A DNA stretch of 58,778 nucleotides from Thiobacillus sp. (lineage in GTDB: Bacteria > Pseudomonadota > Gammaproteobacteria > Burkholderiales > Thiobacillaceae), in contig JAIBEI010000013.1 of NCBI GenBank assembly GCA_019459055.1, positions 1 through 58,778 of the forward strand. The letters are read 5' to 3'. This document shows, one piece after another, positions 1,264-30,783 of the stretch. Both the position numbers and the translations under genes were made by a program. The notes beneath the pieces are model-generated. The model was not told where the DNA came from, searched no databases, and saw nothing but the letters and a program-made list of their open reading frames with translations. The first letter of the stretch is position 1, and each line of letters opens with the position of its first letter.

Positions 1264-1896
1264 TTAATGCCGCTTGTGGTCTTCCTTCAGCGCCAGGGTG
1301 GCGACCTGGACGCGGTTGCGCAGGCCGAGCTTTTCCATGATGTTGCGCAGGTGGTTGCGCACGGTGTTTTCCGACAGCGTCATCTGGTAAGCGATGGCCT
1401 TGTTGGACAGGCCTTCCTTCACGTGGTTGACGATTTCCATTTCGCGCGCGGTCAGTGCCGACAGTGCGCTGTTGTTGAGTTCGCCGCGCGCCATCTTCTG
1501 CATGATGTTGAGCGGGAAACTGCTCTGGCCGTCGCACACGCTGCGGATGGCGGCGAGCACCTGGTCGGGTTCGCTGGACTTGATGACGTAGCCGTCGACG
1601 CCGGACGAGATCGCTTCGGAGATCTCCTCGTCGGAGTCGGCAATGGTGAGCATGATGACCTTGATGCCGAGGTCGCGCAGGTCGGAGACGAGGTCGAGGC
1701 CGTCGGCGTCGGGCAGCGAGCGGTCGAGCAGCGCGGCATCGGCACGGTTGCCCGCCGCCAGCCAGGCGCGCAGCTCGGCGGCGTTGGCCAGCTGCGCGGT
1801 GAGCGTGAGGTCCGGCTCCTGCTGGATGTAGCCCGCCACGCCCATGCGCAGCAGGGGGTGATCGTCAATGAGAATGATGTTCAAGGGGGTTGGCAT
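1264..1896 (-). CDS. NarL/FixJ-family response regulator
   Basis: This 210-residue two-domain regulator has a receiver domain at the N-terminus, with acidic pair D11/D12, phospho-acceptor D58 (in ALLDRSLPDADG), T84 and K106. A LuxR-type helix-turn-helix follows at about 145-195 (LTAREMEIVNHV and SNKAIAYQMTLSENTVRNHL). It should bind DNA after phosphorylation by a histidine kinase, but no kinase gene is adjacent, so it is an orphan here. The ATG at 1896 is chosen because GGAGAC lies about 8 nt upstream; the frame stays open further upstream without a better start. It lies in the same direction as the dioxygenase gene but 212 bp after it, so it probably has its own promoter. Confidence 0.85.
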   Translation of the reverse strand: MPTPLNIILIDDHPLLRMGVAGYIQQEPDLTLTAQLANAAELRAWLAAGNRADAALLDRSLPDADGLDLVSDLRDLGIKVIMLTIADSDEEISEAISSGVDGYVIKSSEPDQVLAAIRSVCDGQSSFPLNIMQKMARGELNNSALSALTAREMEIVNHVKEGLSNKAIAYQMTLSENTVRNHLRNIMEKLGLRNRVQVATLALKEDHKRH

Positions 1897-2108: not shown

Positions 2109-2858
2109 TCAGCCTTGGCGGCTCTCTGCAATCTGCGCGCAATACTGCTGCAAATGCTCCGGCACGCCGGGCGGGCAGGCGCCGCACTCGCGGTTGCCGG
2201 GCACGGCGTAGTCGATGAACTTGGGGTAGGCGAGCTTCAATTCGCTCATCAGCTTGACGAAGTCGTCCAGCGTGCGCTCGCCGCCGAGCCGGGGATTGCG
2301 TGCCTTTTCCTGGCCGATGGTGCTGATGCGGCGCAGCTCGTAGTCGTGCGCCGGGTAGACCAGGGTGTCGTCGTCGAGCGCGAACAGCTTGCCGCGCACC
2401 GAGTGATAGAGCGCGGTGGCGTCGCCGTTCTGGAAGTCGGTGCGGCCGCAGGCTTCGATCAGCAGCGCATCTCCGCTGTAGAGCCGCCCGTCGTGCAGGT
2501 AGGCAAAGTGGTTGTCGGTGTGGCCGGGGGTGTGGATTGGCGTCAGTTCGACCGAGCCCATCCTGAACGGCGTGCCCTCGACGATACCGGAGTCGGTGCA
2601 CGGCAGCGCATCGAGCGCGGGGCCGGCAATCTTGCTGCCGGCGACTTCCTTCAGCTTCTTTGCCGAGGTGATGTGGTCGGCGTGGATGTGCGTCTCGACG
2701 GTGAATGCGAGCTTGAGCCCGAGCGCGTTGACCGCTGCAAGGTCGCGCTCCCAGGTCGGCAGCACCGGGTCGATCAGCAGCGCCTGGCCGGTTTCCTCGC
2801 AGCCGAGGAGATAGGTGTAGGTGCTGGAAACGGGCTCGAACAGCTGCTTGAAAATCAT
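2109..2858 (-). CDS. ETHE1-like persulfide (sulfur) dioxygenase, MBL fold
   Basis: This 249-residue metallo-beta-lactamase-fold protein has the metal-binding THIHADH motif at residues 56-62, TPGHTDN near 114, YSGDALLI (bridging Asp) and PAHDY near 170. The single THIHADH site, the compact length and the CPPG-type tail fit the ETHE1/sulfur dioxygenase branch better than glyoxalase II. Known members use Fe(II) and O2 to oxidise glutathione persulfide to sulfite, which suits a sulfur oxidizer. AGGAGG lies just upstream of the ATG at 2858. The gene begins 21 nt after glcF, so it may be co-transcribed with glycolate oxidase, an unusual pairing. Substrate is inferred from family only. Confidence 0.8.
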   Translation of the reverse strand: MIFKQLFEPVSSTYTYLLGCEETGQALLIDPVLPTWERDLAAVNALGLKLAFTVETHIHADHITSAKKLKEVAGSKIAGPALDALPCTDSGIVEGTPFRMGSVELTPIHTPGHTDNHFAYLHDGRLYSGDALLIEACGRTDFQNGDATALYHSVRGKLFALDDDTLVYPAHDYELRRISTIGQEKARNPRLGGERTLDDFVKLMSELKLAYPKFIDYAVPGNRECGACPPGVPEHLQQYCAQIAESRQG

Positions 2859-2879
2859 TGGGGCCTCCTGAGGACGTGA

Positions 2880-4118
2880 TCAATGTGCGGCCAGTGCATC
2901 GTCCAGAAGTTCCACCCAGTGTCGCACCGGAATCGTTGTGCCGGATTGCAGGTGGGTGAGGCAGCCGATATTGGCGGTGACGATCATCTCCGGCGCGCAG
3001 GCCTGCAGATTTCCGAGTTTGCGGATTTTCAGTTGGTTGGCGATGTCGGGCTGCAGGATCGAATAGGTGCCGGCGGAGCCGCAGCACAGGTGCTTTTCGG
3101 CCACCGCAGCGAGCTCGAACCCGGCGTCGGTCAGCAGCATTTCGACGCCGCCGGTGAGCTTCTGCCCGTGTTGCAGGGTGCACGGCGGGTGGTAGGCGAT
3201 GCGTTTTTGGGTGAGGGGCGAGGGGTGAGGGGTGAGGGACTTCAGCGCGGCCGCTTCGGAAACGAGGATTTCTGAAATGTCCTTCGTTGCGGCGGACACC
3301 CGCGCCGCCTTTTCCGCATAGGCGGGATCACTGCGCAGCAGCCAGCCGTAGTCCTTCACCATCACGCCGCAGCCCGAGGCGGTCATCACGATCGCCTCCA
3401 CCCCGGCGTCGAGGTGCGGCAGCCAGGCGTCGATGTTGCGGCGCGCGGCGGCGAGGCCGTCCTCGGTGTCGTTGAGGTGGTGCGCCAGCGCGCCGCAGCA
3501 GCCGGCTTCTCTGGCTGCGATCAGCGAGATGCCGATCCGGTCGAGTACGCGTGCGGTGGCGCTGTTGATGTTGGGCTTGATGCCGGGCTGCACGCAGCCC
3601 TGCAGGACCAGCATGCGGCGGGCATGAACCGGCCGCGGCCAGTCGCCCGCGGCTTCGGCTGCGGGAATGCGCAATTTGATGAAGCCGGGCATCAGGCCGC
3701 GCATGCTCTGGCCGAGTTTCAGCGCGCTGTTGAACAGCAGTTGCGTTCCGAGGCCGGTTTTCAGCGCGGCGCGCGCGGCGGTTTCGCGTACGCCGCGTCC
3801 GACCTTTTCCTCGACGAGGTGGCGCCCGATGTCGAGCAGCTTGCCGTATTCCACGCCCGACGGGCAGGTGGTTTCGCAGTTGCGGCAAGTCAGGCAGCGG
3901 TCGAGGTGAAGCTGGGTCTTCGCGGTCGGGGTCGCGCCCTCGAAGACCTGTTTGATCAGGTAGATGCGGCCGCGCGGCGAATCGAGTTCATTGCCGAGGA
4001 GTTGATAGGTCGGGCAGGTGGCGAGACAAAACCCGCAATGCACGCAACTGCGCAGGATGCTTTCGGCGACCTCGCCCTCGGGGGTGTTGCGGAAGGATTC
4101 GGCGAGCGTGGTCTGCAT
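2880..4118 (-). CDS. glcF: Glycolate oxidase iron-sulfur subunit GlcF
   Basis: This is a 412-residue electron-transfer subunit of the membrane-associated glycolate/2-hydroxyacid dehydrogenase GlcDEF, which passes electrons from flavin to the quinone pool. Two ferredoxin-type 4Fe-4S motifs lie in the first ~110 residues (CVHCGFCLATCP and CLTCRNCETTCPSG). They are followed by two CCG domains (GCCGALAHH and LCCGSAGTY). The start at 4118 lies 1 nt after the glcE stop, indicating tight coupling. An in-frame heptamer repeat (3209-3239) encodes an odd SLTPHPSPLT stretch between the CCG domains. The frame and all cysteine motifs are intact, so the enzyme is probably functional. Confidence 0.92.
   Translation of the reverse strand: MQTTLAESFRNTPEGEVAESILRSCVHCGFCLATCPTYQLLGNELDSPRGRIYLIKQVFEGATPTAKTQLHLDRCLTCRNCETTCPSGVEYGKLLDIGRHLVEEKVGRGVRETAARAALKTGLGTQLLFNSALKLGQSMRGLMPGFIKLRIPAAEAAGDWPRPVHARRMLVLQGCVQPGIKPNINSATARVLDRIGISLIAAREAGCCGALAHHLNDTEDGLAAARRNIDAWLPHLDAGVEAIVMTASGCGVMVKDYGWLLRSDPAYAEKAARVSAATKDISEILVSEAAALKSLTPHPSPLTQKRIAYHPPCTLQHGQKLTGGVEMLLTDAGFELAAVAEKHLCCGSAGTYSILQPDIANQLKIRKLGNLQACAPEMIVTANIGCLTHLQSGTTIPVRHWVELLDDALAAH
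3209..3239. repeat. GGGTGAG-type heptamer repeat inside glcF
   Basis: Four consecutive 7-mers (GGGTGAG, GGGCGAG, GGGTGAG, GGGTGAG) follow the string ATGCGTTTTT on the plus strand. On the coding strand they read SLTPHPSPLT inside GlcF. The murG end (44138 onward) has the same ATGCGTTTTT string followed by four CCCTGAC-type heptamers. This suggests a dispersed simple-repeat element that has been tolerated in frame here. Confidence 0.75.
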
Positions 4119-4119
4119 G

Positions 4120-5166
4120 TCAGAAGTCCGGATACAGGCGCCCGCGGTTGAAAATGCCTTCGGGGTCGAAGCGCTGCTTGAGATTGCGGTGCAGCGTCGC
4201 GAGCGCCGGCGTGAGCGGGGCGAACACTCCGTCGACCGGTGCATTGCCGCGGAACAGGGTGGCGTGGCCACCGGCTGTCTTGGCCGCTTCGCGCAGCGCG
4301 GCGGCAGGCAGGTCGCTGGCCAGCCAGCGGACCGCGCCGCCCCACTCGATCCATTGCGCGTCGCCGCGTTGCAACGGCGGCGTGGTGGACTTCACGGCCA
4401 GCCGCCACAGCGGGCGCTTGTCGAAGAAGGGTGTCGCCTGGTCGCGCAGACGCTGCCAGAAGGCGGCGGCATCCTTCAGCGTTTCGCCGCCGAGTTTGGC
4501 CTGCGCAGCCTGCACCGCGGACGCCGCGCCGGACAGCCGCAGCGTCAGCCGGCCGGCGTGCCATGAAGTTGCCGACAGCGGCAGCGGCTGCCCAGCCCAC
4601 TGGTTCATTTTCAGGATGGCGGCCGCTTCGTCCAGTTCGTATTGCAGCGTGGTTTCCGCCTTCGGCCGCGGCAGCACCTTGAGCGAGACTTCGGTGATCA
4701 GGCCGAGCGTGCCGAGCGCGCCGACCATCAGCCGCGACACATCGTAGCCGGCGACGTTCTTGATCACCTGGCCGCCAAAACGCAGCGGCTGCCCGGTGCC
4801 GTCGATCAAGCGCACGCCGAGAACGAAGTCGCGCACCGCACCGGCATAGGGGCGGCGCGGGCCGGACAGGCCGGCGGCGATGCAGCCGCCCAGCGTGGCG
4901 GGTCCATTGAAGTGCGGCGGCTCGAACGCCAGCATCTGATTCTGCCCGGCGAGCAGCGCCTCGATTTCGGCCAGCGGGGTGCCGGCGCGCGCAGTCAGCA
5001 CCAGCTCTTTCGGCTGGTAGTCGACCACGCCTGTGAGCACGCGTGTGTTGAGGACTTCACCTTCATCGGCATTGCCGTAGAAGGTTTTGCTGCCGCCGCC
5101 GTGGATGATCAGTGGCGTGCTGCTGGCGTGGGCGGCGCGGATGCGCTCGATGGTGGCGTCCAGCAT
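4120..5166 (-). CDS. glcE: Glycolate oxidase FAD-binding subunit GlcE
   Basis: This 348-residue protein has a PCMH-type FAD-binding N-terminal half. A glycine-rich segment appears around IIHGGGSKTFYG, and the second FAD loop around PATLGGCIAAGLSGPRRP. GlcE pairs with GlcD to form the flavin part of glycolate oxidase. The ATG at 5166 shares its A with the TGA of glcD (TGATG), so translation is coupled. The C-terminus ends in a typical FDPEGIFNRGRLYP motif. It is slightly shorter than GlcD, as is usual for GlcE proteins. Confidence 0.9.
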   Translation of the reverse strand: MLDATIERIRAAHASSTPLIIHGGGSKTFYGNADEGEVLNTRVLTGVVDYQPKELVLTARAGTPLAEIEALLAGQNQMLAFEPPHFNGPATLGGCIAAGLSGPRRPYAGAVRDFVLGVRLIDGTGQPLRFGGQVIKNVAGYDVSRLMVGALGTLGLITEVSLKVLPRPKAETTLQYELDEAAAILKMNQWAGQPLPLSATSWHAGRLTLRLSGAASAVQAAQAKLGGETLKDAAAFWQRLRDQATPFFDKRPLWRLAVKSTTPPLQRGDAQWIEWGGAVRWLASDLPAAALREAAKTAGGHATLFRGNAPVDGVFAPLTPALATLHRNLKQRFDPEGIFNRGRLYPDF

Positions 5167-6620
5167 CAGAACCTCGGCAACTCGGGATGCGGCAGCTGGC
5201 CGCCGTGGATGTGCATCGCGCCCCACTCGGCGCAGCGATGCAGCTCGGGCACGGCCTTGCCGGGATTCAGCAGCTTGTCGGGGTCGAACGCGGCCTTCAC
5301 CTCGTGAAAGCGCGTCAGCTCCGGCGTGGCGAACTGCACGCACATCTGCTTGATCTTCTCCAGCCCGACGCCGTGCTCGCCGGTGATGGTGCCGCCGACC
5401 TCGACGCACAGTTCGAGAATCCTGCCGCCGAAATTTTCGGCCTTGTGCAGTTCGCCCGGCGTGTTGGCGTCGAACAGGATTAGCGGATGCAGGTTGCCGT
5501 CGCCGGCGTGGAACACGTTGGCAACGGCCAGGCCATATTCCGCGCTCATCTCGCTGATGCGCTGCAGCACGTGCGGCAAAGCGCCGCGCGGAATGGTGCC
5601 GTCCATGCAGTAGTAATCGGGCGCCAGGCGGCCGACCGCGGGGAAGGCCGCCTTGCGACCGGCCCAGAATTTGAGGCGCTGCTCCTCGCTCTCGGCGGTG
5701 CGGATCTCGGTGGCGCCGGAGGCTTCGAGCACTTCGCGCACGGTGAAGATGTCGGCCGACACCTCCTCGTTGACGCCGTCGACTTCGCACAAAAGCAGCG
5801 CCTCGCAGTCGAGCGGGTAGCCGGCGTGGACGAAGGCCTCGGCGGCATGGATGGCGAGGCGGTCCATCATTTCGAGACCGGCGGGAATGACCCCGGCGGC
5901 GATGATGTTGCCGACTGCGGCGCCGGCTTTGGCCACGTCGTCGAACGCCGCCAGCACCACTTGCGCGCGTTCGGGGCGCGGCAACAGCTTGACCGTGATT
6001 TCGGTGATCACCGCCAGCATGCCTTCCGATCCGGTCATGAGCGCGAGCAGATCGTAGCCCGGCGCATCCAGCGCATCGCTGCCGATTTCGAGCAGTTGGC
6101 CGTCGATGGTCCAGGCGCGCAGCTTCTGGATGTTGTGCACGGTGAGGCCGTATTTCAGGCAGTGCACGCCGCCGGAGTTTTCCGCCACGTTGCCGCCGAT
6201 CGAGCAGGCGATCTGCGACGACGGGTCGGGCGCGTAGTAAAGATTGTGCTGCGCGACGGCTTCGGAAATCGCCAGATTGCGTACGCCGGGCTCGACCACG
6301 GCGGTGCGCGCCAGCGGGTCGATCGCCTTGATGCGGTTGAGCTTGGCCAGCACGAGCAACACCGCGCCATCGACCGGCAGCGCGCCGGCGGAAAGCCCGG
6401 TGCCGGCGCCGCGCGCTACCACGGCCACCTTGTGTTGATGGCACAGCTGCAGGATCGCCGCCACCTGCGCCTCGTTCTCCGGCAGCACCACCACGTCGGG
6501 CGTGTTGCGGTACGCCGCCAGGCCGTCGGACTCGAACGGCAGCAGGTCTTCACGCTCGTTGAGCACGCAGTGCGGCGGCAACAGACGGCGTAGCTTTGAG
6601 AGGAAGGCGGGACTGAGCAT
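5166..6620 (-). CDS. glcD: Glycolate oxidase catalytic FAD subunit GlcD
   Basis: This 484-residue flavoprotein oxidises glycolate, or a related 2-hydroxyacid, to the 2-oxoacid. It has the FAD-binding core VVARGAGTGLSAGALP near residue 70 and SIGGNVAENSGG near 140. The C-terminal FAD-oxidase domain has the metal/substrate signature HAGDGNLHPLIL and the ending TGEHGVGLEKI. Its length matches the family. It is the first of the glcD-E-F genes and starts 20 nt after the DUF1537 kinase gene, which suggests one transcript. Glycolate arises from Rubisco oxygenation in autotrophs, a plausible source here. D-lactate or a sugar-acid product is an alternative substrate. Confidence 0.92.
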   Translation of the reverse strand: MLSPAFLSKLRRLLPPHCVLNEREDLLPFESDGLAAYRNTPDVVVLPENEAQVAAILQLCHQHKVAVVARGAGTGLSAGALPVDGAVLLVLAKLNRIKAIDPLARTAVVEPGVRNLAISEAVAQHNLYYAPDPSSQIACSIGGNVAENSGGVHCLKYGLTVHNIQKLRAWTIDGQLLEIGSDALDAPGYDLLALMTGSEGMLAVITEITVKLLPRPERAQVVLAAFDDVAKAGAAVGNIIAAGVIPAGLEMMDRLAIHAAEAFVHAGYPLDCEALLLCEVDGVNEEVSADIFTVREVLEASGATEIRTAESEEQRLKFWAGRKAAFPAVGRLAPDYYCMDGTIPRGALPHVLQRISEMSAEYGLAVANVFHAGDGNLHPLILFDANTPGELHKAENFGGRILELCVEVGGTITGEHGVGLEKIKQMCVQFATPELTRFHEVKAAFDPDKLLNPGKAVPELHRCAEWGAMHIHGGQLPHPELPRF

Positions 6621-6640
6621 GAAGGCGTTGAGGTGTCGGA

Positions 6641-7975
6641 TCAGGCTGCGAGTTTAGCCGGGCTCGCCTGCGCGTGCGAGGGCGCGAGCCGCCGGTAGGC
6701 TTCCGCCAGCGCGCCGTCGTCGCCGACGTTGCCGGGAAAAATGACCACCGGCAGTTGCGGCAGGCGGTGCGCGGGCGGCGTCTGCACCACGGTGACGCCG
6801 GGCAGGATCTGCCCCAGCACGCGCGATGCGGCCAGAGCGAGGCCGGTCGACAGCACGTCGTTGGAGGTGATGCCGCCCTTGCTGATCAGGAAGCCGAGCG
6901 TTTCCGGCAGTCTTTTCACCACATCCATCAGCGTGCCCGACACGGCTTCGCCGAATTTCAATCGCTCCGCCACGCTGGCGAACGTACGCTCCGCGCGGCT
7001 GGTGAACACCACCGGCGTGAGGCCGTGCGCATGGGCGTGGGCGATGCTTGCCGTCAGTTCGTCGACCACTGTCGCGCGCGCGGCCGGCAGGCGGGCGACG
7101 TCGAGCGGCAGGCCGACCACGCCGCGTTGCTTCAAGAGCGCAGTCAGCTGCGCGGTGGTCTTGGCCACGTGCGAGCCGACGACGATGGCGCCGGGCTGGC
7201 CGTCGCGTACCAGGGTGGCAAACGATTCAGCGGCGACCGGCTGCGGCGGCAGCTTCGCCAGCGCGGTGAGCAGCGAGGCCGCGCTGCGGAACAGGAGTCG
7301 CTTGCCGCCGGCGGCAGCGGCCAGCACTGCATCGGCGAACAGCCGGTAGTCGTCGGCTGATTCGCCGTCGACCACGCCCACCGTGTTGTCGTGCATCGCG
7401 GCGAGCCATTCGCCTGCCGCGCCGGCACGCAGGTCGGCCAGCGTCAGGCGCGCCACATCTTTGGCGGCGACGCGGCCAGCGGTTTTTTCCGCGACGTAGT
7501 CGGGCAGATACGCTGTCGTGTAGCCGAACACCGAGTCGCGCGCGAATTCGGTTTCATGCGTCGGCACCGGCTTGCCGTCGACCATCAGGTAGTGCGTGCT
7601 GTCGCGCGTGATGCGGCCGCCCTCGAAGAACGCCGGGGTCAGCAGCGTGGCGTCGAACGGCCCGAGCACGGCGTTCATCACGTCGGTTTCCACCGGATAG
7701 TGGCCGCGCAGGGTCGAGTCCGAGCGGGACACGAACAGCACCGGGCCGTCGTAGTCGGCCAGCGCAGCCTTGAGGTTGACGCACACCTCGCGGGTGACGG
7801 CGGCGGCGCGTTCCGCGTCCATCCCCCGTGTATTGGTCAGGATGAAGAACAGCGGCGCGGCGTCCGCCAGCGCCGTCTTCAGCGTGGTGACGTCCCAGTG
7901 CGTCAGCAGCAGGCAGGAATGCACCGTCTGCGAGCCGGTGGGATCGTCGTCGAGAACGATGATTTTCGGGTTCAT
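6641..7975 (-). CDS. DUF1537 four-carbon acid-sugar kinase family protein
   Basis: This 444-residue protein begins with the signature IVLDDDPTGSQTVH. It also contains TNTRGMDAERAAAVTREV, SRSDSTLRGHYPVE and the C-terminal ISKGGITSNDVLSTGL. These are hallmarks of the DUF1537 (OtnK/DtnK-type) kinases. Characterised members phosphorylate four-carbon sugar acids such as threonate or 3-oxo-tetronate with ATP. The usual partner PdxA2 is absent; the neighbours are a phosphoketolase-like enzyme upstream and GlcD 20 nt downstream. That context points to a different sugar-acid route. The ATG at 7975 gives the canonical N-terminus; the open frame upstream of it is only repeat sequence. Substrate unknown. 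Confidence 0.88.
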   Translation of the reverse strand: MNPKIIVLDDDPTGSQTVHSCLLLTHWDVTTLKTALADAAPLFFILTNTRGMDAERAAAVTREVCVNLKAALADYDGPVLFVSRSDSTLRGHYPVETDVMNAVLGPFDATLLTPAFFEGGRITRDSTHYLMVDGKPVPTHETEFARDSVFGYTTAYLPDYVAEKTAGRVAAKDVARLTLADLRAGAAGEWLAAMHDNTVGVVDGESADDYRLFADAVLAAAAGGKRLLFRSAASLLTALAKLPPQPVAAESFATLVRDGQPGAIVVGSHVAKTTAQLTALLKQRGVVGLPLDVARLPAARATVVDELTASIAHAHAHGLTPVVFTSRAERTFASVAERLKFGEAVSGTLMDVVKRLPETLGFLISKGGITSNDVLSTGLALAASRVLGQILPGVTVVQTPPAHRLPQLPVVIFPGNVGDDGALAEAYRRLAPSHAQASPAKLAA

Positions 7976-7993
7976 GGTCGAAACCTTTTTCTG

Positions 7994-8083
7994 TCCGCGA
8001 ATACCCGAAGGGCATAAAGGACGCGAAGAAACGCGAAGGAAAAAACCTAGGTTTTCTTCACGGCCCTTCGCGTTCTTCGCGGA
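7994..8083. repeat. CGCGAAGG palindromic dispersed repeat, copy 1
   Basis: This 90-bp inverted structure between the TPP-enzyme gene and the DUF1537 gene begins TCCGCGAA and ends TTCGCGGA. Imperfect arms (GACGCGAAGAAACGCGAAGG opposite CCTTCGCGTTCTTCGC) surround a palindromic centre (aacctaggtt). It belongs to the same family as 19319-19400. On RNA it would form a large hairpin inside the putative operon and could modulate expression of the downstream genes. Confidence 0.8.
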
Positions 8084-8091
8084 TGCATTTT

Positions 8092-10332
8092 TTAAGCCGT
8101 CGCCTGTTCCATCATCGCCAGCGCACGCTCGTGCATCGCCTGTGCATTCATGCCGTTGAAGTCGAACAGCTGCTGCGCGCTGGCGGTGGTTTCGCCGCGC
8201 TTCCAGCAGAAGACGTCGCGTTGCGCGGCCTGGCTGCGCAGCAGCACCGGCTCCAGCGGGCCCGACGGGCCGCCGCTGACGGCGATCAGCACGTCGCCAT
8301 GGAACATCGCGTGGAAGGCGGCGTCGTCCATGAAGCGGCCGTCCGGTTCCGACACGCTGTTCCACAGCACATCGCCGGGACGGTACAGCCGGCGCGGGTT
8401 GACCACGGCGACGATGCGCGAGCCGATGCCGGCTTCGGCCAGTTTCTCGGCGGCGGCGAACACCGGCTGCAGCACCATGTCGCCGGTCACCGCGAACACC
8501 ACGGTATGGGAGCCCGCCGTTTTGTTTGAAGGCAGCTCCTGCAGCACCATCGCGCCGTCGTCAATCGCCTGATAGCTCTGCGCCATCGTGGCGTGGATCG
8601 GCAGCGGCGACTTCGAGGCGGTGATGACGATGCCCTTGTTGTGCTGGTGCAAGGCCCAGTCGTAGCTCGCCTGGATCATGTTGGCGTCGACCGGGAACAG
8701 CGGGTAGACGTTGCCGTTGCGCATCATCGCGGCGAAGTAGCTTTCGATCTCGGGACGCTGGTGGGTCCAGCCGTTGCGGCCCTGCTCCAGCGCGCCAGCG
8801 GTGAACAGGCACACCGTCGCGGGGGTGGGGCGGCGCAGTTCGGCCATCGCCTGGGTCACCGTCTGCCAGATCGGCAGGCCGTTGATGGCGAAGGACTCGT
8901 AGCTGCACCACAGGCTGCGGCCGCCGAACAGCGCGAGCCCCACCGCGAGGCCGGCGCAGGCGTCCTCGTTGAGCGGCTCGTAGACCTGGCCGGACGGGCC
9001 CTGGAAATAGAGGTCGTCGGCGGTCGGGTGGCGGATCGTCAGCGCCTTGTTGATGTTGGCCATGGCGGACGCCTCGTTGCCGTCGGCGTTGGTGACGACG
9101 AACATCGGGTCGCGGCGGCCGACTTCGCCAACCACCTGGCCGAAGGCGGTGGTCGGGATGTGGTTCTCACCGACGGCGAATTCGGTCAGCGACAGGCCAT
9201 CGAGGCTCGGCAGCTCACGCACGGTTTCGGTCACGGCCACGCGTGCGGCCGGGCCGCCGCCGGCGTGACGGAAGTTTTCGCGGGTCAGCTTCCAGGCCTG
9301 GATCGGCAGCGCGCGGCGCTGCAGGCCGGCTTTCACGTCCTCGGAGTCGAGGGTGTGGTGCGCATACAGGTTGTGCGACTTGGCGCCGGTGGCGTGCACG
9401 CCCGCGCCCTTCAGCTGCTTGACGATGAGGCAGGCGCGACGGCCGGACAACGCGCTTTTTGCAGCAACGTCGGCCGCTTTCAAAATGGCGCCGGTGAACG
9501 CCATGCGCGCGGCGAAGCCGAAGGTGGTGCTGTCGGTATACGCCGGCGCGTCCGGGGTGTCGGCATACTCGCGGGCGTCGACCAGGTGCACCTCGTCGAA
9601 CCCATGCGCGCGCCAGTAGTCGGTCATGCGCGTGTTGTCCCACAAGGACACCATGCTGTGGTGCTCCTGCGAATAACCGTTCCACACCAGCACCGGCAGG
9701 TAGTTGGTGACGGCCGGGTAGGCGGTGGCGAAGTGCTGGAACGCGCTCATGATGTAGGGCTCGCCCAGGCCGCCGTCGCCGATGGTGACGGGGAACAGCT
9801 TGTCGCGATTGAGATAGGCGCCGGCCATGGCGAAGTGCTGGCCCTGGCCCAAGGGACCCGCGGGCGCCAAAAGGCCGGGAATCGCGCCCGACAGGTGGCC
9901 CAGGAGGCCGTGGCGCTCGCGGTAGCGCGCGCGCATGTCGGAAACCGTATGGATGCCCATGTCTTCCAGCGAGGTGTCGAGGAACATCGCCGAGTAGAAG
10001 CCGGGCGCGTGGTGGCCGACCTCGGTCACCATATTGCGGTGGCCCAGCAGATGCAGCGCGGCGACCGCGTCGGCGCTGGAGGCGAAGCCGCCCGGGTGGC
10101 CGGACGACTTGCTGCCGGTGACCTGCAGGGTCAGATAGCGCAGCGCGTCGGCGGCCAGCAGGGTCTGATAGATCGCCGCCTCGCTGGTGGCGTCCGGCAG
10201 CGTGGGCTGGTTCGGGCCAAGCAGCGGCGCGGCGCCGAGGCGGTCGATTTCCGGGAAGCTGTCGGCGAAATACTGGATGCCTTCGCAAAAGGCGGGGAAG
10301 GTTTCGGGGGAGGACTGCGTCAACGCATTCAT
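8092..10332 (-). CDS. Phosphoketolase/transketolase-like TPP enzyme (divergent subfamily)
   Basis: This 746-residue thiamine-diphosphate enzyme shows SGHPGGFASSADA near the N-terminus, a transketolase/phosphoketolase TPP loop. It also shows GDGGLGEPYI followed by VLVWNGY, fitting the GDG-Nx-N cofactor motif. A C-terminal half with GRNGWTHQRPEI resembles the phosphoketolase HNGFTHQDPG segment. The classical phosphoketolase strings GPGHGGPA and GDGEAETGPLA are replaced by GHHAPGFYS and GDGGLGEPY, so it is a distinct branch. Relatives are sometimes labelled xylulose-5-phosphate 3-epimerase in databases; I would not rely on that. The ATG at 10332 is chosen because AAGGA sits 6 nt before it; a second ATG at 10338 is too close to that site. 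It is divergent from the IclR gene and likely repressed or activated by it. Confidence 0.8.
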   Translation of the reverse strand: MNALTQSSPETFPAFCEGIQYFADSFPEIDRLGAAPLLGPNQPTLPDATSEAAIYQTLLAADALRYLTLQVTGSKSSGHPGGFASSADAVAALHLLGHRNMVTEVGHHAPGFYSAMFLDTSLEDMGIHTVSDMRARYRERHGLLGHLSGAIPGLLAPAGPLGQGQHFAMAGAYLNRDKLFPVTIGDGGLGEPYIMSAFQHFATAYPAVTNYLPVLVWNGYSQEHHSMVSLWDNTRMTDYWRAHGFDEVHLVDAREYADTPDAPAYTDSTTFGFAARMAFTGAILKAADVAAKSALSGRRACLIVKQLKGAGVHATGAKSHNLYAHHTLDSEDVKAGLQRRALPIQAWKLTRENFRHAGGGPAARVAVTETVRELPSLDGLSLTEFAVGENHIPTTAFGQVVGEVGRRDPMFVVTNADGNEASAMANINKALTIRHPTADDLYFQGPSGQVYEPLNEDACAGLAVGLALFGGRSLWCSYESFAINGLPIWQTVTQAMAELRRPTPATVCLFTAGALEQGRNGWTHQRPEIESYFAAMMRNGNVYPLFPVDANMIQASYDWALHQHNKGIVITASKSPLPIHATMAQSYQAIDDGAMVLQELPSNKTAGSHTVVFAVTGDMVLQPVFAAAEKLAEAGIGSRIVAVVNPRRLYRPGDVLWNSVSEPDGRFMDDAAFHAMFHGDVLIAVSGGPSGPLEPVLLRSQAAQRDVFCWKRGETTASAQQLFDFNGMNAQAMHERALAMMEQATA

Positions 10333-10343
10333 GGCCATTCCTT

Positions 10344-10446
10344 TTTCACAATATGAAAATGTCTCACATGATGTGAAACGATGATCGTATTGAAGCAGAT
10401 CAGGCGACAAATTTCACATTGCGTGATAAATTTTCACTTCATGAAA
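10344..10446. promoter_or_regulatory. Array of four TTTCAC-N5-GTGA/GAAA operators between the TPP enzyme and iclR-type gene
   Basis: Four similar sites lie in the divergent region. Site 1 is TTTCAC-aatat-GAAA (core 10346-10358). Site 2 is TCTCAC-atgat-GTGAAA (10364-10376, a perfect TCACATGATGTGA palindrome). Site 3 is TTTCAC-attgc-GTGA (10414-10426). Site 4 is TTTCAC-ttcat-GAAAA (10434-10446), overlapping the regulator's ATG. The core starts are 18, 50 and 20 bp apart. Two sites lie next to the TPP-enzyme start and two next to the regulator start, as expected for an autoregulated divergent regulator. The binding protein is inferred to be the adjacent IclR-type regulator. Confidence 0.7.
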
Positions 10447-11205
10447 AAAATAAGCTCTTCTATTCAGGTGCTCGACCGTGCCATGGCGCTGGTCGGGATC
10501 CTTTCCCGTGCGCCGGGCCCGGTTGGTCTCACCAAGTTGGCCGGCGAGGCCGAACTCCACACCGCCAGCGCGCACCGCATCCTTGGTTCGCTGATGGCGC
10601 ATGGCCTGGTCGAGAAAACCGGCGCCGGCGAATACGATCTGGGCGTGCGCTGGCTGGAAGTGGGCAATCGCCTGCGTGCTCGTCTCAATATACGTCAGGT
10701 GGCGATGCCTTTCATGCAGCGACTTGCTGAGTTGACAGGCGAAACGGTCAATCTGATTGTTCGTCGCGGCGACGAAGCGGTCTACGTCGAGCGCGTGACG
10801 GGCGGGCAGACGCTGATCCAGGTGGTGCAGGTGGTGGGCGCGCACGCGCCGCTGCACGTGACCGCCGTCGGCAAGATCTTTCTTGCCGAGGACAGCGCCA
10901 GCGGCGTGATGGGCTATGCCGAGCGCACCGGCCTGCCGGCGTACACCAGCAACACCCTGACATCCCTGGACAGACTGCAGGCCCAGCTTGCAACCATCCG
11001 CGTTGAACAGCTTGCACACGACCGCGAGGAAGCCGAAATGGGCGTCGCGTGCATCGGCGCGCCGATCCGAGACGCCGAAGGGAAGCTGGTTGCCGGATTG
11101 TCGATTTCCGCCCCGGCCGATCGTCACAAACCGGGCTGGGACGAAGCCTTGAAAAAAGCCGCCGCGCAGACTGGTGCAGCACTGGGTTACCTGGCCAATG
11201 GCTGA
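10441..11205 (+). CDS. IclR-family transcriptional regulator
   Basis: This 254-residue regulator has a winged helix-turn-helix at about 6-65 (SIQVLDRAMALVGILSR, GLTKLAGEAELHTASAHRIL) and an IclR effector-binding domain at about 80-250 (GETVNLIVRRGDEAVYVER, APLHVTAVGKIFLA, GVACIGAPIRD). Such proteins control catabolic operons in response to small acids. It is transcribed away from the TPP-enzyme/DUF1537/glc block and is the obvious regulator of it. The ATG at 10441 is preferred because the HTH begins right after it. An upstream ATG at 10381 would put operator sites inside the gene. There is no clear Shine-Dalgarno, so translation may be leaderless. Confidence 0.87.
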   Translation: MKKISSSIQVLDRAMALVGILSRAPGPVGLTKLAGEAELHTASAHRILGSLMAHGLVEKTGAGEYDLGVRWLEVGNRLRARLNIRQVAMPFMQRLAELTGETVNLIVRRGDEAVYVERVTGGQTLIQVVQVVGAHAPLHVTAVGKIFLAEDSASGVMGYAERTGLPAYTSNTLTSLDRLQAQLATIRVEQLAHDREEAEMGVACIGAPIRDAEGKLVAGLSISAPADRHKPGWDEALKKAAAQTGAALGYLANG

Positions 11206-28939: not shown

Positions 28940-29830
28940 TCACTTGTCGTTGTCGAGGCTCTCGCCGGTCAGCCGCTCGAGCGCGCGCATGATGGCCGAC
29001 GAGTCGAGTTCGCTGTCTCCGGCGCCCATCAGCGCGTTCATCTGCTGCGCGATCAGCGCAGCGCCGGGCAGCGGGGTGGCGGTTTCCTGCGCGTTGTCCA
29101 TGACGATGGCCATGTCCTTGTGGTGCAGCTTGACCTTGAAGCCGGCCTTGTAGTCGGAGTCGAGCATGCGCTGGCCGTGGACGTCGAGGATGCGGCTGCC
29201 GGCGAAACCGCCCAGCAGCGCTTCGCGCATCTTGACCGGGTCGACGCCGTTGCGGCGCGCCAGCAGGATGGCTTCGGCAACGCCTTCGAAGGTGAGGCCG
29301 ACGACAATCTGGTTGCAGCATTTGACCACCTGTCCGGCGCCGTGGCCGCCGACGTGGACGATGTTCTTGCCGAGGATTTCGAACAGCGGGCGGATCTTTT
29401 CGAAGATCGGCGCTTCGCCGCCGACCATGATCGACAGCGTGCCCTCGCGCGCGGCGACTTCGCCGCCCGACACCGGGGCGTCGAGCATGTGGACGCCGCG
29501 CTCGGCCAGCGCAGCGGCGATGCGGCGGGTGGCGGAGGGCGAGACGGTGCTCATGTCGACGATGGTGTGGCCGGGGCGGGCGCCGTGCACCAGCCCGCGG
29601 TCGCCGAGGATGATCTGTTCGACGTCGGTGGTGTCGGAGACGACGGTGAAGGTGATGTCCGATTCGGCGGCGACTTCGGAGGGGGTGCCCTTGCCAAGCG
29701 CGCCGGCGACCAGCATCGGTTCGAGGCGGTCGAAGCGGCGGCCGTAGACGAACAATTGGTGCCCGGCGCCCAGCAGGTTTTCCGCCATGGGGCGGCCCAT
29801 GATGCCGCTCCCGATGAATCCGATTTTCAT
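28940..29830 (-). CDS. garR: 2-hydroxy-3-oxopropionate (tartronate semialdehyde) reductase-like
   Basis: This 296-residue beta-hydroxyacid dehydrogenase has the NAD(P) loop IGFIGSGIMGRPMAENL, the substrate motif LDAPVSGGEVAAREGTL, and GAGQVVKCCNQIVVGL with the catalytic Lys. GarR/GlxR reduces tartronate semialdehyde to glycerate, downstream of glyoxylate. Related 3-hydroxyisobutyrate dehydrogenases are the alternative. It overlaps the permease stop by ATGA (29827-29830). It could take products from the glycolate oxidase encoded at 2.9-6.6 kb, though no glyoxylate carboligase gene is seen. Confidence 0.82.
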   Translation of the reverse strand: MKIGFIGSGIMGRPMAENLLGAGHQLFVYGRRFDRLEPMLVAGALGKGTPSEVAAESDITFTVVSDTTDVEQIILGDRGLVHGARPGHTIVDMSTVSPSATRRIAAALAERGVHMLDAPVSGGEVAAREGTLSIMVGGEAPIFEKIRPLFEILGKNIVHVGGHGAGQVVKCCNQIVVGLTFEGVAEAILLARRNGVDPVKMREALLGGFAGSRILDVHGQRMLDSDYKAGFKVKLHHKDMAIVMDNAQETATPLPGAALIAQQMNALMGAGDSELDSSAIMRALERLTGESLDNDK

Positions 29831-30783
29831 GATGCAATGCCTTTCACGACAACAAGCCAGAATGGCAGCGTAACCAATCCCACCAGCGTTGACCAGCCCA
29901 TGATGAGGCCTGCCAGGCGGGTATCGAGGCCGAAGCGGTCGGCCAGCGCGATGACCATCACCATGGTCGGCATGGCCGCTTCCAGGATCGCCGCTTCGCC
30001 CGGCTCGGTGAGCGTGCCGGGCCACGCCAGCGCAATCCCCAGCGCCAAGAGCGGCATCAGCGCCAGCTTGATGGCCATGGCGATAAAAACGGCCTTGTGC
30101 GGGCGCAGGTCGTGCCAGGGAATGGTCAGGCCCAGCACGAACAGCATCAGCGGAATGGTCGGGCTGCCGGCCCAGCGCGCGGCTTCCACCAGCGGTTCGA
30201 GTGCCACCTCCGAGAGGTTGACCGCGATGCCCGCCGCGAAGCCCCATACCGGCGGCAGCTTCAGCCACATCGACAGGAACGAGGCATGCTCGGCGTGCTT
30301 CCCGCAGCGAAAGGCGATCCACACGCCGACCGACCACAGCAGCGGCGTGGCGGCGAGCATGTCGGCGAAGAACGGGTAGCGCACGCCCGATTCGCCGTAC
30401 ACCGTGGTGAGAAAGGGGTAGCCGAAGAACAGCACGTTGCCGAAGCCGGACGCCAGTATGACGGCGCCGCGCTGCGGTAGCGTGAGGCCGCGCCCGAGCG
30501 GGGTGGCGAACAGCGCCAGCGCGGACAGCGCAAGGCCGAACAGGGTGGCGGCGCCGAGAATCAGCGGCACCTGCAGGATGGCGAGGTCAACTGTGGCGGA
30601 TGCGCCGGCCGCGAAGAACAGCATGGGCGCAAAAAAATTCAGTACCAGCCGGTTGATTTCGCCGCGCAGGCCGACAATGGAAACGCCGGATTGCCAGCGT
30701 GGCCAGATGGCGCCCGCGGCGATCAGCAGCGACAAGGGCAGCAGCGTTTTAAGCAGCAGTTGCTGTGCGAGCTCGGCAGACAT
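29827..30783 (-). CDS. AEC-family transporter
   Basis: This 318-residue membrane protein has about ten helices, including LLPLSLLIAAGAIW at the N-terminus and LILGAATLFGLALSALALF. Two charged-residue-containing segments sit near the middle. This is the auxin efflux carrier (AEC) superfamily layout, whose bacterial members move organic acids such as malonate or malate. As the first gene before garR, with an ATGA overlap, it may import or export the hydroxyacid handled by that enzyme. Confidence 0.83.
   Translation of the reverse strand: MSAELAQQLLLKTLLPLSLLIAAGAIWPRWQSGVSIVGLRGEINRLVLNFFAPMLFFAAGASATVDLAILQVPLILGAATLFGLALSALALFATPLGRGLTLPQRGAVILASGFGNVLFFGYPFLTTVYGESGVRYPFFADMLAATPLLWSVGVWIAFRCGKHAEHASFLSMWLKLPPVWGFAAGIAVNLSEVALEPLVEAARWAGSPTIPLMLFVLGLTIPWHDLRPHKAVFIAMAIKLALMPLLALGIALAWPGTLTEPGEAAILEAAMPTMVMVIALADRFGLDTRLAGLIMGWSTLVGLVTLPFWLVVVKGIAS

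Follow-up and report, generated by a model that had tools for sequence, protein, structure and literature searches.

We analysed an operon of Thiobacillus sp. within a stretch of 58,778 nt (contig JAIBEI010000013.1; hereafter the window), in which a divergent thiamine pyrophosphate-dependent enzyme (TPP enzyme), a DUF1537 kinase (KIN) and the glycolate oxidase subunits GlcDEF accompany an IclR-family regulator. The locus is probably a module by which Calvin-cycle organisms salvage glyoxylate (phosphoglycolate), and it seems to be the operon form of a TPP enzyme-KIN pair found widely among Calvin-cycle bacteria. The original prediction, drawn from this DNA alone, had tentatively assigned the operon to the catabolism of a C4/C5 sugar acid; that assignment is now less supported, because KIN and RuBisCO coincide in cyanobacteria, carriers of the TPP enzyme in a class sample are enriched in RuBisCO and KIN occurs beside 2-hydroxyacid oxidases in half of the cyanobacterial genomes inspected that lack the TPP enzyme, a distribution that favours Calvin-cycle organisms and glycolate.

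Operon Structure and Recurrence

With families assigned by Pfam and NCBIfam, the operon reads IclR (divergent), TPP enzyme, KIN, glcD, glcE and glcF. The IclR gene (10441-11205, plus strand; PF01614 E 8e-43, PF09339) diverges from five genes on the minus strand, beginning with those for the TPP enzyme (8092-10332, 746 aa), a proposed glyoxylate-accepting ketol transferase, and KIN (6641-7975, 444 aa), a DUF1537 (four-carbon acid sugar) kinase proposed to be a 3-oxotetronate 4-kinase. These are followed by glcD (5166-6620), encoding the glycolate oxidase FAD subunit, glcE (4120-5166) and glcF (2880-4118). GlcE and GlcF exceeded their NCBIfam cut-offs (535.9 bits against 284 and 663.9 bits against 333, respectively), whereas GlcD fell slightly below both of its own (820 against 897 for PRK11230 and 551.4 against 567.9 for TIGR00387). 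The TPP enzyme and KIN genes are separated by 116 nt and glcE and glcF by 1 nt, and the 20-nt and overlapping junctions that had been described were found between KIN and glcD and, as a single shared base, between glcD and glcE. KIN had also been said to lack a PdxA2 partner; in agreement, no PdxA was present among the window genes scanned with Pfam.

The linkage of the TPP enzyme, KIN, GlcDEF and IclR, which the original prediction had named for checking in relatives, recurs. A protein scan of genome contigs yielded 573 confirmed stretches, and the best 80 of these comprised 31 proteobacterial loci (L003-L027, L038, L044, L045, L061, L070, L075) and 49 cyanobacterial loci. In 30 of the 31 proteobacterial loci KIN lies downstream of the TPP enzyme in the same orientation, with a gap of 0-509 nt; in the remaining locus, L017, the contig stops inside the TPP enzyme gene. 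A class sample of 229 genomes included 16 with the TPP enzyme, and linkage was counted in the 15 other than the source genome (G000). All 15 have KIN downstream on the same strand (gap 11-860 nt), with contig-end pieces represented by KIN in L128 and the TPP enzyme in L168. The locus carries glcD in 26 of the 31 proteobacterial cases (on the far side in L070) and in 9/15 of the class sample, and a divergent IclR gene in 25/31 and 12/15, respectively; glcE was found on 24 and glcF on 23 of the 31. Since the same gene order was found in tens of genomes, the arrangement is not a product of chance. Over 71 pairs, distances of the TPP enzyme and KIN were correlated, with r = 0.93 for the proteobacteria and r = 0.85 for the cyanobacteria. 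This observation was given little weight because common descent accounts for most of it and several of the genomes contribute two loci each.

Co-Distribution with RuBisCO

The source genome (2.93 Mb, 99.98% complete), whose TPP enzyme is 97% identical to a homolog named Thiobacillus sp., has a single RuBisCO match at E <= 1e-40 (G000:C4:3026-3919). Its 408 bits resemble the lower-scoring group of class matches, so the enzyme is probably form II, and much phosphoglycolate would therefore be expected in air. Within the class sample, RuBisCO was present in 15 of 16 TPP enzyme carriers compared with 111 of 229 genomes overall (one-sided Fisher p ~1e-4, nominal), and the sole carrier lacking a match, G193, is a genome of 86% completeness. 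All 16 carriers have KIN. The reverse situation, KIN without the TPP enzyme, was limited to G271, G388 and G330, the last a fragment. At the G388 locus (L169; that of G271 is L170) the neighbours of KIN are a class II tRNA synthetase and a protein of 534 aa without a Pfam match.

KIN followed RuBisCO in 146 Cyanobacteriota genomes: 63 had RuBisCO, 63 had KIN, 62 had both and 82 had neither. As oxygenic cyanobacteria are one clade, p-values for this group are nominal and overstate independence. The TPP enzyme was found in 54 of the 146 genomes, 53 of them with KIN, and each of the 16 TPP enzyme-positive cyanobacteria tested contained exactly one KIN match (60-64% identity). The two genes are seldom neighbours there; KIN lies on the TPP enzyme locus (<=10 kb on each side) in only 1 of the 49 cyanobacterial loci of the best 80, L041.

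The surroundings of KIN were inspected in eight of the ten cyanobacterial genomes that have KIN and lack the TPP enzyme (G120 and G133 were left out). These eight, of 1.7-3.4 Mb and with KIN at 37-48% identity, are taken to be mainly alpha-cyanobacteria. In four of them (L105-L108) KIN is next to 2-hydroxyacid oxidase genes. It directly follows an FMN-dependent 2-hydroxyacid oxidase in L106 (PF01070 E 1.3e-123) and, by similarity, in L105, which additionally has a membrane D-lactate dehydrogenase (PF09330), and it is placed between glcD/E-like and glcF-like genes in L107 (checked with Pfam) and L108 (BLAST only). L104 has the same outer neighbours as the oxidase-bearing loci with no oxidase between them, and it looks as if various 2-hydroxyacid oxidases sit beside KIN at one chromosomal spot. 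In the cyanobacterial locus L039, glcD/E-like, glcF-like and TPP enzyme genes are consecutive, with KIN on a separate contig. Together, L105-L108 and L039 tie both KIN and the TPP enzyme to glycolate-type oxidation. No common functional partner was seen among the KIN neighbours in beta-cyanobacteria, where one recurring neighbour is MinC.

The TPP Enzyme and KIN

The TPP enzyme passed the Pfam gathering scores for XFP (43.2 against 22) and XFP_N (25.2 against 23.7). It failed the NCBIfam cut-offs for phosphoketolase, which are 777 and more (best 88.9 bits against 777), and for transketolase (best 50.3 against 488). The predicted fold and the catalytic Glu are those of the transketolase/phosphoketolase superfamily, with an identity of 15-20% to either enzyme in structure alignments. 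In contrast to phosphoketolases (XFP, PF03894/PF09364) of 796-845 aa, the TPP enzyme has 746 aa, and a split transketolase subunit (6yak, residues 55-255) is a further match for its N-terminal half. His548 of phosphoketolase is catalytic; the corresponding position is Arg519 in the TPP enzyme, invariant in an alignment of 50 sequences, and no Arg stands opposite phosphoketolase Arg442. Glu456, Asn520, His524, His79, His146 and Lys574 match the same residues of phosphoketolase. The two strings said to replace the phosphoketolase hallmarks, GHHAPGFYS and GDGGLGEPY, are both in the translation. Across the 50 sequences, 17 of the 18 positions in them are invariant or show conservation of 90% or more, the exception being Leu189. 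The NCBIfam cut-offs and the active-site changes disfavour an ordinary phosphoketolase or transketolase, and the predicted dissimilarity to ordinary phosphoketolases is borne out by the cut-offs, Arg519 and the structure alignments. The TPP enzyme forms a third branch, alongside transketolases and phosphoketolases.

Many Nostocales homologs of the TPP enzyme bear the same names, 'transketolase' or 'phosphoketolase', as sll0529 of Synechocystis and alr1850 of Anabaena. On the basis of this annotation, the TPP enzyme is probably orthologous to these cyanobacterial proteins, known as Pket2.

KIN contains both DUF1537 domains and the full-length fold of DUF1537 acid-sugar kinases. It scored below the cut-off of the D-threonate kinase (DtnK) model NF047819 (69.6 against 450) and is 18-25% identical to the six solved DUF1537 entries listed, none of which matched it in a sequence search at E <= 0.001. 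According to the available part of one report, DUF1537 kinases use C4 acids, 3-oxotetronate included (PMC12540250). Whereas the 3-oxotetronate and D-threonate kinases of this group are partnered by PdxA2 or OtnC, the partner of KIN is the TPP enzyme. OtnC was rejected as a general partner, its family (PF00596, class II aldolase) being missing from the source genome and 10 others of the 40-genome panel described below and present in 29. The DUF1537 activity in 4-hydroxythreonine salvage, as given in the accessible text of PMC7954711, was likewise set aside, since it accounts for neither the TPP enzyme partner nor RuBisCO.

The IclR Regulator and Its Predicted Operators

The best-scoring NCBIfam IclR model for the regulator was BhcR (NF045644), at 167.6 bits below the cut-off of 350. 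BhcR regulates the beta-hydroxyaspartate (glyoxylate) cycle and senses glyoxylate. Between the IclR and TPP enzyme genes we located a palindromic predicted operator, TTTCACAATATGAAA (10344-10358), which is a TTTCAYATTRTGAAA-type match on both strands. A second predicted operator, TTTCACATCATGTGAGA (10362-10378), read towards the TPP enzyme, follows a post-hoc pattern, and a third, weaker operator-like site, TTTCACTTCATGAAA (10432-10446), overlaps the IclR start and has two mismatches to TTTCAYATTRTGAAA. Allowing <=2 mismatches, TTTCAYATTRTGAAA had three matches in the 58.8-kb window, all in this gap, compared with 0.05 expected; they are 10344-10358 on both strands and 10432-10446. A pattern devised after inspection, with no chance level computed, located like sites in the corresponding gap in 23 of 26 sequences; L018, L045 and L070 were missed, and TTTCACATTATGAAA is an example from L038 and L061. 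The regulator probably senses glyoxylate or a product and would act at the tandem TTTCAYATTRTGAAA-type operators.

Proposed Pathway

We tentatively propose a chemistry of ketol transfer to glyoxylate, phosphorylation by KIN and decarboxylation to dihydroxyacetone phosphate (DHAP), which we regard as possible and somewhat short of an even chance. Judging from its family, GlcDEF would oxidize glycolate from RuBisCO oxygenation to glyoxylate, as in the bacterial glycerate pathway; in contrast to that pathway, glyoxylate carboligase (Gcl) passed its cut-off in 0/40 genomes of a panel. The panel comprised 15 of the 16 TPP enzyme-positive genomes of the class sample (without G368), 8 of the 10 KIN-only cyanobacteria and 17 of the 54 TPP enzyme-positive cyanobacteria. 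In a transketolase-like reaction, the TPP enzyme would transfer a C2 ketol from a Calvin-cycle ketose, probably xylulose 5-phosphate (xylulose-5-P) or fructose 6-phosphate (fructose-6-P), to glyoxylate, whose carboxylate Arg519 may bind. The products would be 3-oxotetronate (HOCH2-CO-CHOH-COOH) and glyceraldehyde 3-phosphate or erythrose 4-phosphate (erythrose-4-P). KIN, from the reported activities of its family, would phosphorylate 3-oxotetronate at O4, and 3-oxotetronate-4-P could then yield DHAP and CO2, spontaneously or by a putative enzyme. The net reaction would be glyoxylate + xylulose-5-P + ATP to two triose phosphates and CO2, and it would require neither an amino-group shuttle nor NAD(P)H.

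Ketol transfer to glyoxylate is proposed because it is the simplest chemistry that joins a glycolate oxidase and a C4-acid kinase through a transketolase-like enzyme; the occurrence of such a kinase next to a ketol transferase and a supply of glyoxylate would be simply explained as C2 + C2. Oxidation and phosphorylation had been placed before TPP-dependent cleavage, and the order is better read as the TPP enzyme first, forming the C4 acid from glyoxylate, and the kinase second.

Several observations weigh against this proposal. With respect to distribution, 96 of the 111 RuBisCO genomes in the class sample lack the TPP enzyme, and the module is therefore optional; G271 and G388 have a 41% identical KIN with neither the TPP enzyme nor RuBisCO. 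The cyanobacterial co-distribution of KIN and RuBisCO may represent a single inheritance event, and 10 of the 63 KIN-positive cyanobacterial genomes have no TPP enzyme, so the KIN substrate there would come from elsewhere. With respect to gene context, glcD is not on 5/31 and 6/15 of the loci (the contigs of L017 and L128 end early), similarity searches found no oxidase at KIN in four of the eight TPP enzyme-less cyanobacterial loci (L101-L104), and in L160 (G292) and L165 (G215), which lack glcD on the locus, a TRAP transporter gene adjoins the TPP enzyme-KIN pair. Each glyoxylate processed would cost one CO2, a greater loss than in the glycerate pathway, and a decarboxylase was not found, the OtnC family PF00596 having no match (E <= 1e-10) in the source genome. 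In one alignment, His320 of the TPP enzyme faces a Glu of the source genome's own XFP, so that not all transketolase-type histidines can be placed, and the active-site loop of the structural model is of low confidence. From cyanobacteria, the accessible portion of PMC7744508 gives an ambient/high-CO2 expression ratio of just 1.10 for sll0529, and, in the part of PMC9034593 available, an xfp1/xfp2 double deletion without a phosphoketolase pathway left photomixotrophic growth unaffected.

The TRAP genes beside the pair encode DctP in L160 and L165 and DctM in L160; these acid transporters could possibly import glycolate or a related acid.

Alternative Explanations

The strongest rival is tetronate salvage, which is close to the sugar-acid view and which we consider unlikely. 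Here 2-oxotetronate would arise from erythronate or threonate (for example, from over-oxidation of Calvin-cycle erythrose-4-P) through a 2-hydroxyacid oxidase, KIN would form 2-oxotetronate-4-P, and the TPP enzyme would decarboxylate or cleave this to triose phosphate. Oxidase, kinase and TPP enzyme fit one order in this scheme, DUF1537 enzymes are known C4-acid kinases, and the TRAP transporter genes at the L160 and L165 pair fit acid uptake. A three-step route with a 2-oxotetronate kinase, with enzymes in cyanobacteria, is also described in the available part of PMC12540250 (citing Guo 2024); however, in the routes reported there the dehydrogenase is of the NAD_binding_2/NAD_binding_11 type and the decarboxylase of the aldolase type, and neither GlcDEF nor a TPP enzyme takes part. 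Moreover, GlcE and GlcF are above glycolate oxidase cut-offs with GlcD slightly under, KIN reached just 69.6 against 450 on the sole tetronate-kinase equivalog that it matched, and the close link to RuBisCO would have no obvious reason.

We find a rebuilt glycerate pathway quite improbable. Two glyoxylates would be joined by the TPP enzyme to give tartronate semialdehyde, which a garR-type reductase would turn into glycerate, and KIN would serve as the glycerate kinase. This would fit the lack of Gcl above the cut-off in all 40 panel genomes, the source genome included (1/14 controls passed, presumably E. coli); weaker Gcl-model matches, in 40/40, are taken to be acetolactate synthase-like enzymes. 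It would also fit the result for PF02595, the one glycerate kinase family covered by the search, which was present in 9/40 and missing in 31/40, among them the source genome and all 8 TPP enzyme-less cyanobacteria. The window has a suitable garR-type (tartronate semialdehyde) reductase (28940-29830, minus strand; TIGR01505 352.8 against 340.75), adjoined by a Mem_trans (AEC-type) permease (29827-30783, minus strand; PF03547), and a garR homolog follows glcDEF in L162. However, the reductase passed its cut-off in just 3/40 panel genomes, the source genome included, and in 0/17 TPP enzyme-positive cyanobacteria (weaker matches at E <= 1e-60 occur in 20/40), the KIN family is known for C4 acids, and several ketose-cleaving histidines are kept that a glyoxylate carboligase would not need.

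The garR-type reductase and AEC permease, correctly recognized at 29-31 kb in the original prediction, had been thought to handle the glyoxylate-derived product. A general role of this kind is unsupported and the two were rejected as part of the system, given the ~18.6 kb between reductase and operon, the 3/40 genomes passing TIGR01505 and L162 as the one linked case. In L162 (G244), glcDEF begins ~5 kb after the TPP enzyme gene and the garR homolog (61% identity) comes next. Another reductase of this kind is encoded in the source genome (G000:C1:27899-28759); because no Gcl is above the cut-off, neither has an obvious substrate source.

A further alternative, that the TPP enzyme is a true, if divergent, phosphoketolase isozyme forming acetyl phosphate from xylulose-5-P or fructose-6-P, with KIN and GlcDEF as mere neighbours, is highly improbable. 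Its 88.9 bits compare with phosphoketolase cut-offs that start at 777, an invariant Arg takes the place of His548 with no Arg opposite Arg442, a separate true XFP (E 4e-178) is already in the source genome, and the KIN linkage would be left without explanation.

Flanking Genes

Downstream of glcF, a metallo-beta-lactamase-fold, glyoxalase-II-like protein (2109-2858, minus strand; TIGR03413 103 bits against a cut-off of 200.8) is a peripheral passenger. Its gene was found on 10/31 proteobacterial loci, all from close relatives, and on 0/15 class-sample loci, which ruled it out as a core part. Past the operon end is a NarL-type response regulator gene (1264-1896, minus strand) with a copy of 99% identity in L003.

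Relation to the Cyanobacterial Second Phosphoketolase

Published descriptions of Pket2 vary. In the accessible portion of PMC7744508, sll0529 and alr1850 constitute a neglected second phosphoketolase, and according to its authors the phosphoketolase activity of sll0529 is still to be verified. The available text of a review counts sll0529 as Pkt2 (PMC11257934), and a figure on 2-phosphoglycolate-responsive regulation presents it as a putative transketolase of unknown function (PMC7281370). Published tables list alr1850 as 'Transketolase' or 'Phosphoketolase region'. A survey that excluded cyanobacteria reported, in the part available, that phosphoketolase is not enriched with the Calvin cycle (PMC7895386). 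In the literature, Pket2 is thus a phosphoketolase isozyme or has no assigned function, whereas the TPP enzyme is read here as a glyoxylate ketol transferase. Purified Anabaena Alr1850 reportedly showed no phosphoketolase activity (Moriyama 2015), which would also speak against a phosphoketolase isozyme. A literature search that reached a minority of subscription papers and no bioRxiv preprints gave no paper connecting these genes with glyoxylate in the portions available.

Few processes in biology lose as much carbon as photorespiration, and those who engineer crops and cyanobacteria have made it a main target. In the sampled cyanobacteria KIN tracks RuBisCO almost one to one, and the TPP enzyme is present in most of those that bear RuBisCO. 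The pair might represent a further natural photorespiratory route in most RuBisCO-bearing cyanobacteria and in some sulfur-oxidising and other proteobacterial autotrophs, with the cyanobacterial 'second phosphoketolase' being this TPP enzyme, a reading that we hold to be possible rather than probable. The finding is larger than the local sugar-acid operon first described. If true, it would point to a gap in textbook carbon metabolism, filled by two enzymes whose present annotation goes no further than a spare phosphoketolase and a sugar-acid kinase of generic type, and it could account for sll0529 having no assigned role.

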